A stretch of DNA of 64,000 bases, from contig JAHBUS010000001.1 in NCBI GenBank assembly GCA_019637955.1, positions 310,001 through 374,000 of the forward strand. Reading direction: 5' to 3'. Below are positions 8,803-46,771 of the stretch, in pieces. Under the pieces are notes generated by a model, which was given only the letters and a program-made list of their open reading frames with translations, had not been told where the DNA came from and ran no database searches. The number at the start of each line of letters is the position of its first letter. The first letter of the stretch is position 1. The translations under genes were made by a program, and so were the position numbers. The stretch comes from Pseudobdellovibrionaceae bacterium. Lineage in GTDB: Bacteria; Bdellovibrionota; Bdellovibrionia; Bdellovibrionales; Bdellovibrionaceae.

Positions 8803-9744
8803 ATGCTTAGACGCTCACTTCAAATCCTGATGGCGGGTTCGACCGCGATGATGCTGACCGGCTGCCTCGAGTTCATGCCGGGCGGCCCCCTGAGCGGACG
8901 CGATGTCGACTCCCCGCCCGACAGCTTTCGCGGCGAAAAAGCGACGACCTACGAGGCCGCCGAGCTTCAATTCTCGGAAGGATCCACGGTCCGATTGAAC
9001 GCGTTTCGCCCGGCGAAGTACATCCACTACTCGAAGCTGCTGATTCCGTTTCGCATGGAAAACGACACTCAGTTTCGGCTGCTGACCGCCCGTCTGATCG
9101 ATGGCTCCGGCGGGGTCTCGTTTCCCGAGAACATTCCGTTTCGCATTTTGACGGCGTCGCGCGAGATTTTGATCGACGATCTGCGCACCGGCACGACGGT
9201 CACGCTCGATCCGCACACCAACTATTACGTTTCACTTTGCTACCCGCTCTCGGACCGCAAAGCTTGCGACAACGTGTCGCCCAATTATTACCCGTCGTCG
9301 ACGAAGACATTCGATCTGGAGTTTTCGGCCTGGAAAGGCGAAGGGCCGGCGCCGCAAGTCGAAATCGGCTGCGAGACGGTGCAGGGACGACGCCTCTCTT
9401 TTCGCCGCCAGGGAATTTTTGAGCAAGACGGAGCCGCCTATTTTGGCCCGAACCGGGCGTGCGGCGCCCCTGTCGCCAGCACCCACCGCTCGTACATGAG
9501 TGCTTTTTTCGTGAGCGAGGATCCGCGGGCGGAAAACACGCCCCTGCCCGGCTATTCGCTCTGGGCCTACAACAGCAAACCGATCGATCCGCCGTTCGAC
9601 TACTACGGCGCCTCTTTGCGCAAGACCGCCTCCGGTTTTGAACTGACCTGCACAAAACAAAAAGTGCTCTCTTACGAAGAGAGCACCACCGAGTTCGAAG
9701 AGACCCTTCCGGTCGCTTCTTGCGAGAATATGCTGGTCAACTAA
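8803..9744 (+). CDS. outer-membrane or periplasmic lipoprotein of unknown function
   Basis: The signal peptide ends in a lipobox LTGC with the lipidated cysteine at residue 21. The following 290 residues are rich in beta-type sequence and contain several cysteines (CYPLSDRKAC, GCETV, RACGAP, LTCTKQ, ASCENM), which suggests disulfides. A GGGGG ribosome-binding site precedes the ATG. A consensus -35 (TTGACA, 8758-8763) lies upstream with only a weak -10 at 17 nt spacing, so it probably has its own promoter. The stop TAA begins the tandem hairpin repeat shared with the end of dut. No family is recognised. Confidence 0.72.
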   Translation: MLRRSLQILMAGSTAMMLTGCLEFMPGGPLSGRDVDSPPDSFRGEKATTYEAAELQFSEGSTVRLNAFRPAKYIHYSKLLIPFRMENDTQFRLLTARLIDGSGGVSFPENIPFRILTASREILIDDLRTGTTVTLDPHTNYYVSLCYPLSDRKACDNVSPNYYPSSTKTFDLEFSAWKGEGPAPQVEIGCETVQGRRLSFRRQGIFEQDGAAYFGPNRACGAPVASTHRSYMSAFFVSEDPRAENTPLPGYSLWAYNSKPIDPPFDYYGASLRKTASGFELTCTKQKVLSYEESTTEFEETLPVASCENMLVN

Positions 9745-9805
9745 ACGCCCACCTGAGCGCCAAAGGCGCTAAACGCCCACCTGAGCGCCAAAGGCGCTAA
9801 ACGCC
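9742..9805. repeat. tandem 28-bp hairpin repeat between convergent gene ends
   Basis: A 28-bp unit is repeated exactly twice (9742-9769, 9770-9797) and followed by an 8-bp partial third copy. Each unit contains the perfect hairpin AGCGCC-AAA-GGCGCT. The first copy includes the stop codon of the lipoprotein gene, and the partial copy contains the end of dut. The position between convergent genes suggests a bidirectional terminator, although there is no T-tract. Confidence 0.8.
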
Positions 9806-43963: not shown

Positions 43964-44905
43964 ATGCGCACACTCTTTTTATCCCTTGTCTTGATGCCCC
44001 TTCTTTCAACGGCCGCCATTTTCGGGACGGACGACCGCGTTCATGTCCTTCCTGGCGACGCGAATTCAAAATTAGGCCGCGCCACCGCGATCGCCGTGCT
44101 CTCGGCCAATATCGCGCCGAGCGCCTCGAACCCTGAACTCCTCGATCTCGACACCACCCCTTTGAGCGAAGCCCTTTGCAAGGACGAAAAATTTGCCTCC
44201 GATCCGAGCCTGTCTTACGCCTGCTCGGGATTCTTGGTGGCGCCCGATTTGATCGCCACCGCCGGTCATTGCATGACCAATGCGGGCGAAACCCGCAATG
44301 AAACCGAGATGTACTGCGAAGCTTTCGGCTGGCTCTTCGACTATCAAAAGGGAGCTTCGGGGACGACCACCACCAAAGGCATCGCCAAAGACCGCTACTA
44401 CAAATGCAAAAAAATCATCTACGCGGTCAAAGAAGAAACCTACCCCTACCGCGACTATGCTTTGGTTCAACTTGAGCGGCCCGTGACCGGGCGCGAGCCG
44501 ATGAAGATCGCGTCCAAATCGCCGGGCGTGGGCGAAGCCGTCTCGATGATGGGCTACCCTTTCGGCACGCCCTTGAAGCTGTCTTCGAAGGCCCAGGTTT
44601 TGATCGACAACCCCGAACGCCAATCGCAAATCACCAACCTCGATGCGTTCGAAGGCAACTCGGGCAGCGCCGTCTTGAATAGCGCCGGCGAAGTGGCGGG
44701 GATTTTGGTGGGTGGAACACCCTACCTAAGCCTCGTCCAAGACAATGTTCAACAGTGCCAGCGTTACAACCGCTGCGACAATCGGGGCGAAAACTGCACC
44801 CTCCCCGACACGCTCAATCCGGGCAGCAAAGACTTTCAGGGCATCGGCTCCGAAGTTCAGCGCATCGCTCCGATTCTGGAACTGCTCCGAACTCAAGTGC
44901 GGTGA
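43964..44905 (+). CDS. secreted trypsin-like (S1/V8-type) serine protease
   Basis: The 313-residue protein has a signal peptide (LSLVLMPLLSTAAI) and the full catalytic triad: His102 in TAGHC, Asp164 in YRDYALVQL, and Ser233 in EGNSGSAVL. The chain also has a disulfide-type cysteine set and a C-terminal cysteine-rich loop (QQCQRYNRCDNRGENC). It resembles V8/glutamyl-endopeptidase-like trypsins. There is a pro-like segment between residues 22 and 85. No strong ribosome-binding site is visible. Its 3' neighbour is the cysteine-repeat gene 68 nt away. Confidence 0.9.
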   Translation: MRTLFLSLVLMPLLSTAAIFGTDDRVHVLPGDANSKLGRATAIAVLSANIAPSASNPELLDLDTTPLSEALCKDEKFASDPSLSYACSGFLVAPDLIATAGHCMTNAGETRNETEMYCEAFGWLFDYQKGASGTTTTKGIAKDRYYKCKKIIYAVKEETYPYRDYALVQLERPVTGREPMKIASKSPGVGEAVSMMGYPFGTPLKLSSKAQVLIDNPERQSQITNLDAFEGNSGSAVLNSAGEVAGILVGGTPYLSLVQDNVQQCQRYNRCDNRGENCTLPDTLNPGSKDFQGIGSEVQRIAPILELLRTQVR

Positions 44906-44941: not shown

Positions 44942-44973
44942 AAAAGGCGAACCCCCGCCAAAAGGAGACCACC

Positions 44974-45519
44974 ATGAAATCGATTTTACCCGTCCTCGCC
45001 TTGTTTTTGCTGGCCCTGCCCGCCGAGGCCGCGACCGAGGCCTACTGCTCACGTCCTGAGAACCGCTACGACAATGCCTGCCGATCAAGTGAAGCGTACT
45101 GCTCGCGTCCCGAGAATCGCTATGACAGTTCCTGCCGCTCGAGCGAATCCTACTGCTCGCGCCCGGAGAACCGTTACGACTCCCAGTGCAAAACCAGCGA
45201 GGCCTACTGCGACCGCCCCGAAAACCGCTACGACTCCCAATGCAAATCCAGCGAATCCTACTGCTCACGGCCCGAGAATCGCTACGATTCCCAGTGCCGA
45301 TCGAGTGAGGCTTACTGCGACCGCCCCGAGAACCGTTACGATTCGCAATGCAAATCCAGCGAGTCCTACTGCTCGCGTCCTGAAAATCGCTACGATTCCC
45401 AGTGCCGATCGAGTGAGGCCTACTGCGACCGCCCCGAAAACCGTTACGATTCTCAATGCAAATCCAGCGAGGCTTACTGCTCGCGTCCTGAGAACCGCTA
45501 CGAAACCAGCTGCCGCTAG
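44974..45519 (+). CDS. secreted cysteine-rich tandem-repeat protein
   Basis: The 181-residue product has a signal peptide (MKSILPVLALFLLALPAEA) and is otherwise made wholly of nine 18-residue repeats with the pattern E-[AS]-Y-C-[SD]-R-P-E-N-R-Y-[DE]-x-x-C-[RK]-[ST]-S. It has 18 cysteines in regular C-x10-C-x6-C spacing, consistent with one disulfide per repeat in the oxidising periplasm or outside. Repeats 3-4, 5-6 and 7-8 form a 36-residue higher-order unit. The repeats differ mostly by synonymous codons, so the protein sequence is selected. AAAGGAG precedes the ATG. I recognise no family. Its stop overlaps that of the convergent DUF488 gene (CTAG). Confidence 0.85.
   Translation: MKSILPVLALFLLALPAEAATEAYCSRPENRYDNACRSSEAYCSRPENRYDSSCRSSESYCSRPENRYDSQCKTSEAYCDRPENRYDSQCKSSESYCSRPENRYDSQCRSSEAYCDRPENRYDSQCKSSESYCSRPENRYDSQCRSSEAYCDRPENRYDSQCKSSEAYCSRPENRYETSCR
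45037..45516 (+). repeat. 54-bp coding tandem repeats (nine units)
   Basis: The nine 18-codon units of the cysteine-repeat gene; the last unit is 16 codons. A 108-bp higher-order period alternates Ser and Asp after the first cysteine of the unit (YCS/YCD) in units 3 to 8. Confidence 0.9.
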
Positions 45520-46057: not shown

Positions 46058-46771
46058 TTAAGGACAGCTTTTTCCCCAGGTGTTCGGCGTGGCATCGCCA
46101 ATTCCGAAGTGAAGCGATTCGCTCGAGTAGTAGCCGAGCGCCCGCATTTCACCTTTGGCGCGCCACTGGCATAAAACCTTGTGGGCCTTTTCTTGATCGC
46201 TCTTCGAACAGAACCGCACGTCCACCGAGGTGCCGTAAGGATGGCGTCCCGCGGCTCCGCCGACGTTCTTGTTGTAAGGCTCCGGTCGCCACCAGTTGTA
46301 GATTTGGCAGACCTTGATCCCCATTCCGCCGAGCCGCTCCACCAGGCGCACGGCCTGAGCCGCGTGCACCCATGTTTTGGTGTCGGGATGGATCAGTTGG
46401 TGCACTTGGGTCGAACCGTACGTGCAGCGAAACGTCGAGAGGCTGCTCGGATTGGGGCGGATGAGCTGTTGGCACCAGCTCGAACCATTGGTCACGCTCC
46501 CGCAGTAATCCAAGAACTCGTTCTTCTTTTGATTGCCGACATTGATCTGCGAGATCTGGCTCGAATTGGCTTTCGCGCAGGCGCGGGCTTCGTACAAGAA
46601 CTCCTCGAACAACTCCACGTCGCCGTGCTCGTGTTCGTCCATGCCCTCGTCGAGGGCTTCGTGGGTGTGATCCTCATCCATTTGGGCGTGCGCGGTCTCA
46701 CTGAGGCGGGCGCAAGAGGTCGCGAGCAGGGCGATTGAAAACAAGAAAACCGTGGTTTTAAAACGGAACAT
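46058..46771 (-). CDS. M15-type (VanY-like) peptidase lipoprotein
   Basis: The 237-residue protein has a lipobox ATSC (Cys20), a His/Asp/Glu-rich linker (EDHTHEALDEGMDEHEHGD), then a domain with GRHPYGTSVDVRF and a C-terminal ESLHFGIGD, matching the H-x6-D ... H metal-binding pattern of M15 D,D-carboxypeptidases and endolysin-like enzymes. It probably trims peptidoglycan cross-links. There are several cysteines in the domain. The ribosome-binding site and start codon are inside a strong RNA stem. Confidence 0.75.
   Translation of the reverse strand: MFRFKTTVFLFSIALLATSCARLSETAHAQMDEDHTHEALDEGMDEHEHGDVELFEEFLYEARACAKANSSQISQINVGNQKKNEFLDYCGSVTNGSSWCQQLIRPNPSSLSTFRCTYGSTQVHQLIHPDTKTWVHAAQAVRLVERLGGMGIKVCQIYNWWRPEPYNKNVGGAAGRHPYGTSVDVRFCSKSDQEKAHKVLCQWRAKGEMRALGYYSSESLHFGIGDATPNTWGKSCP

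Follow-up and report, generated by a model that had tools for sequence, protein, structure and literature searches.

The window, a stretch of 64,000 nucleotides from a Pseudobdellovibrionaceae bacterium, contains a short gene whose product bears what looks like a type I signal peptide and is probably secreted (Table 1). Residues 20-181 (162 residues, positions 45031-45516) divide exactly into nine 18-residue units with the consensus [SAT]-[ST]-E-[AS]-Y-C-[SD]-R-P-E-N-R-Y-[DE]-x-x-C-[RK]. The sequence Y-C-x-R-P-E-N-R-Y was found in 9/9 units, and a second cysteine follows 10 residues on in 9/9 as well, so that the 18 cysteines of these 162 residues are spaced strictly 10,6,10,6 (C-x10-C-x6). 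Given cleavage at the AEA site, the exported protein would be repeats alone. We saw neither a lipobox nor a transmembrane segment or sorting tail in the sequence, and the protein lacks an anchor and a partner domain. The mature chain uses 12 amino-acid types and lacks F, G, H, I, L, M, V and W. It contains 18 Cys, 18 Tyr, 27 basic and 30 acidic residues, and it is very hydrophilic (GRAVY -1.77) with a pI near 5.3 and a net charge near zero.

Table 1. Coordinates of the repeat gene, its parts and the gene upstream (positions in the window), with the relatives sorted by unit length
Feature	Position	Strand	Remarks
Upstream secreted trypsin-like protease	43964..44905	+	PF13365/PF00089; GHC, DYALV, GNSGS motifs
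Shine-Dalgarno-like AAGGAG	44962..44967	+	six bases 5' of ATG; read from sequence
Whole gene, nine-repeat putative secreted protein	44974..45519	+	181 codons (amino acids) plus stop
Putative type I signal peptide MKSILPVLALFLLALPAEA	44974..45030	+	19 residues, AEA before first repeat; read by eye
Unit 1 ATEAYCSRPENRYDNACR	45031..45084	+	from sequence
Unit 2 SSEAYCSRPENRYDSSCR	45085..45138	+	from sequence
Units 3-4, first 36-residue Ser/Asp pair	45139..45246	+	sequence, Tandem Repeats Finder
Units 5-6, second 36-residue Ser/Asp pair	45247..45354	+	sequence, Tandem Repeats Finder
Units 7-8, third 36-residue Ser/Asp pair	45355..45462	+	8 silent bases vs units 5-6; unit comparison
Unit 9 SSEAYCSRPENRYETSCR	45463..45516	+	from sequence
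Relatives with 18-residue units			L008/G154, L037, L011
Relatives with 16-residue units			L012, L013, L017, L044, L045, L048, L050, L096

The residue after the first cysteine alternates between Ser and Asp in units 3-8, and Tandem Repeats Finder scored a 108-base period (82% match) above the 54-base one (70%). Units 5-6 and 7-8 are products of the latest 36-residue duplication: units 5 and 7 differ at five bases and units 6 and 8 at three, all of them silent. For an unselected stretch, the chance that 8/8 changes are silent is roughly 3e-6, a rough estimate that takes about 20% of sites as silent and ignores transition bias. Over all unit pairs, differences at codon positions 1, 2 and 3 numbered 110, 81 and 303, with pS 0.71 and pN 0.14. 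Because the units differ mostly at silent sites, the protein is selected; a non-coding or accidental repeat is ruled out by the codon-position bias together with the silent-only recent differences. These results bear out a preliminary description of the locus, which had proposed a signal peptide followed by repeats only, an invariant Y-C-x-R-P-E-N-R-Y with a second cysteine after 10 residues, stepwise duplication with a 36-residue super-period, and selection that keeps the amino acids while codons vary. Elsewhere in the window, positions 9741-9805 hold a perfect 28-base tandem repeat of 2.3 copies.

A sporadic family of cysteine-pair repeat proteins

No match above the curated cut-off was obtained in Pfam or NCBIfam, a PHROG match spanned 11 residues only (28 bits), and a sequence search of the PDB gave no match to the repeat protein. 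Foldseek found no similar solved structure in the PDB, a result that may reflect masking of repeats, and a fold search of viral models returned poor matches only (TM 0.17). The lack of a match to a named family agrees with the preliminary description, which knew of no similar family, and our literature searches turned up no description of cysteine-pair repeat proteins of this kind. Several candidate matches were set aside. A PDB profile match to 'CVKNPEDSSC' of CD38, a C-x8-C pair that forms a disulfide in that protein, had an E-value of about 1-2 and was judged a chance sequence match. A second match in the window's own genome, on contig 9, was also taken as chance, its frame being broken by three stops. 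Streptomyces DDPWHPSP-repeat and mycobacteriophage matches to 16-residue queries look like low complexity. We rejected a phage or plasmid origin, as the window protein was unmatched in phages, plasmids and viral contigs; viral scans with two 16-residue relatives were likewise empty.

Profile searches of the phylum revealed a convincing family member in 13/369 genomes. We define the family by tandem two-cysteine units with a constant loop of 8 or 10 residues and a six-residue linker in the main array; the window protein has paired cysteines, a constant 10-residue loop and a six-residue linker. A scan of genome contigs identified a close relative (L008, 60% identity) with eight units spaced as in the window protein, in a metagenome-assembled genome labelled Bacteriovorax stolpii, one of these 13. 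This protein is the same as that of G154, which a genome search placed in the window's phylum; the window therefore lies in the phylum of Bacteriovorax (Bdellovibrionota in GTDB). A second G154 gene, L037, has eight units with highly varied loops, and L011 in G293 encodes a probable lipoprotein of seven units with ENTFK loops. The 16-residue C-x8-C form occurs in G005, G053, G085, G143, G164, G177, G218, G227 and G333, and G087 encodes a two-unit protein. The distribution is patchy, with members in distant families of the phylum and none in most close relatives of the window genome. The preliminary description had suggested that a profile search for shared cysteine spacing would settle whether the protein is an orphan; the members found here rule that alternative out, and the protein belongs to an unnamed, sporadic family with 18- and 16-residue forms.

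By eye, export signals are apparent in the window protein and its relatives alike. These proteins share tandem units, C-x10-C or C-x8-C loops and a linker that is normally six residues long, often with S-E-A-Y-C before the loop and S-C ending it. They differ in loop length (10 versus 8) and in loop sequence, PENRY in the window protein and NPY or PW in relatives. One relative is a probable lipoprotein, and in L013, L017 and L045 the repeats follow other N-terminal regions; none of these proteins is characterised. Two further loci were noted. L095 (G227:C160) carries a related array at 1144-1464 and 1648-1980 whose linkers alternate between 3 and 6 residues (YCKYNPMTPGCPTYCKYNPMDSECKSSG...); another reading frame with two pairs lies immediately upstream. 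L018 (G218:C166) encodes an exported protein, long and Gly-rich, whose lone unit of the 18-residue type (EIDCSRPENRSNQAC) may be related to the repeat in single-copy form.

Full-length repeat profiles give inflated E-values: one array, read in antisense, reached 6e-13. Because periodic cysteines inflate profile scores, we adopted a shuffled-column control of 200 decoys in which the cysteine columns were kept and the other columns permuted. When the 18- and 16-residue profiles were compared with hhalign, they aligned with 97.6% probability and a score of 49.3, against decoy scores of 10.6 +/- 4.4 with a maximum of 30.3. The alignment matched S-E-A-Y-C and the loop end Y-x-S-x-C, with a two-residue gap. 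Thus, the likeness of the two forms exceeds cysteine spacing. The two forms are likely to share common descent, and their convergence on one structure is a less probable alternative.

Probable disulfide pairing within each unit

The loop in the main array of relatives is 10 residues throughout or 8 throughout, and detached pairs near their C-termini keep C-x8-C. The distance between pairs is usually 6 and may also be 3, 5, 13, 14, 17 or 25; in G227:C160, linkers of 3 and 6 alternate. Since loop length is kept while the linker varies from 3 to 25 among relatives, one disulfide within each unit most likely closes the loop. The window genome contains DsbA-family genes.

A role in metal binding or thiol buffering could be imagined for a protein with 18 Cys in 162 residues, and one relative has a Pfam match to eukaryotic metallothionein (E 0.0024), which lies below the cut-off. 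However, the repeats have no C-x-C or C-x-x-C clusters, the only cysteine gaps being 10 and 6, and the repeat cysteines are always paired. The protein would also be exported to an oxidising periplasm in a genome that encodes DsbA-family proteins. We therefore regard this role as scarcely credible.

The neighbouring protease gene

The gene for a secreted trypsin-like protease ends 68 bases 5' of the repeat gene on the same strand, and no terminator-like site was found in the gap. This arrangement raises the idea that the repeat protein is a multi-headed inhibitor, a chaperone client or a substrate of the protease. Arg/Lys and Glu recur in every unit, and a Vibrio trypsin-like protease is fused to similar units. 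However, protease homologues occur in 46/60 relatives, and among these 60 only the window genome gave a convincing match to the full-length repeat query. No repeat gene adjoins the four closest protease orthologues, and no homologue of the window protease lies beside other family members, which have mutually unrelated neighbours. The loop's Arg positions also lack conservation in relatives. Because the protease is common in relatives that do not have the repeat gene, inhibitor or substrate pairing is unsupported; the two proteins are probably not functionally tied, and we consider such a pairing very unlikely.

The same protease could be invoked if the protein were a precursor from which nine small cyclic peptides are cut, each after the Lys or Arg at the end of its unit, as every unit of the window protein ends in C-K or C-R. 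In the Bacteriovorax relative, by contrast, the linker C-S-S-T-E has no basic residue, and the linkers of the 16-residue relatives mostly have none at this place, which makes the precursor idea highly implausible. On the other side of the repeat gene, on the minus strand at 46058-46771, the window encodes a secreted protein with a sub-threshold match to peptidase M15 (E 0.12) and an N-terminal stretch rich in His, Asp and Glu (DEDHTHEALDEGMDEHEHG).

A predicted rod and its possible use

An AlphaFold model of the window protein, built with three relatives, had a mean pLDDT of 82.5 (about 90 for residues 51-150) and a pTM of 0.62, although the alignment had four rows and over-confidence is possible on perfect repeats. 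In the model, S-E-A-Y of each unit forms a short helix, and a second helix, of one turn, precedes the second cysteine; the 16-residue family, modelled separately, shows a matching unit layout. The preliminary description had suggested a rod or a sheet of disulfide-closed loops; the stacked model, together with the constant loop and variable linker, points to the rod. We propose that DsbA-type oxidation in the periplasm closes the 10-residue loop (C-x10-C) of each unit, and that the helix and the turn stack on the next unit, so that the exported protein would fold as a short rod of nine stacked units. Because Tyr, Cys and Ala are the sole hydrophobic residues, the fold would have to rest on disulfides and Tyr packing.

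Such a rod would show the charged loop R-P-E-N-R-Y-D nine times. With nine identical charged loops, multivalent, low-affinity binding to a repetitive extracellular or periplasmic ligand would be the most likely use, and candidate ligands include envelope glycans and surface polymers of the bacterium itself or of its prey. Avidity for a single repetitive ligand would fit the uniform loops of the window protein. The units of L037 share an unchanging Cys, Glu and Asn scaffold but diverge at loop positions, where entropy reaches 2.8 bits, a pattern to be expected of a binding scaffold with exchangeable loops. We regard the disulfide-stapled rod as probable and, granted that architecture, multivalent binding as somewhat favoured; a secreted, stapled rod that binds a repetitive ligand multivalently is, as a whole, our best but tentative reading. 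Spacing and modelling argue well for the intra-unit disulfides and the rod; the binding is a weaker proposal. Several points speak against the binding rod: we found neither a ligand nor an anchor or partner domain, family members do not share gene neighbours, and a pure spacer or protease-resistant polymer would look alike.

A passive role as spacer, coat or protease-resistant polymer is an alternative, in which the rod would have no specific ligand and act as a stalk, filler or matrix component. Its hydrophilic character and near-zero net charge would suit this, as would the other N-terminal regions that precede the repeats in several relatives. A further parallel is a trypsin-like protease encoded on a Vibrio breoganii plasmid (NZ_CP016179.1, L071, 127-1839; WP_065211385.1), in which five C-x8-C units with NPY or NPW precede a GlyGly-CTERM-like surface tail. 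These units resemble the cysteine-pair family, but their linkers are one to three residues long and they are part of an enzyme; the match is weak (E 3e-3) and may be convergent, so that the segment fits spacer use while its relation to the family is uncertain. On the other hand, the window protein has no anchor and is joined to no domain that a spacer would hold, and the strict conservation of R-P-E-N-R-Y in its loops exceeds what a spacer needs. A purely passive role is thus possible but rather unlikely.

Short disulfide-closed tandem repeats in secreted proteins are already known as a general kind; what is new here is a cysteine-pair family for which we found no name, solved relative or published description. 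The nearest working precedent for disulfide-closed tandem loops in an adhesin, by analogy, is BAD-1 of Blastomyces, in which each loop of the tandem repeats is closed by one disulfide (PMC3708853). Both are surface or secreted proteins made mostly of short tandem repeats, with the disulfides of the window protein deduced from spacing. BAD-1 differs in being fungal, in its 17-residue loops with WxxWxxW (the mature window protein has no Trp) and in its C-terminal EGF-like anchor; no sequence relation was found or expected. The MAT fibres of Bdellovibrio bacteriovorus are large trimeric beta-helix fibres, and the main text of the paper describing them mentions neither cysteine nor disulfide (PMC10769870). 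They too are exported proteins, used by a predatory relative for prey contact, but have no repeats of this kind.

It is conceivable, although doubtful, that the family represents a new, disulfide-only class of solenoid, a rod that has no conventional hydrophobic core, is built of stapled loops of 16-18 residues and serves predatory bacteria as a length-adjustable modular scaffold for binding prey or self surfaces. If the rod model is true, the architecture would be minimal (one disulfide, one short helix, 16-18 residues and 12 amino-acid types), lengthened in evolution by simple duplication in a group that includes bacterial predators, and it would offer a natural template for designed binding scaffolds. 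Collectively, our analysis brings unannotated proteins together in a single testable family, which, on the same condition, would be a candidate for the poorly known secreted proteins by which such bacteria touch other cells.
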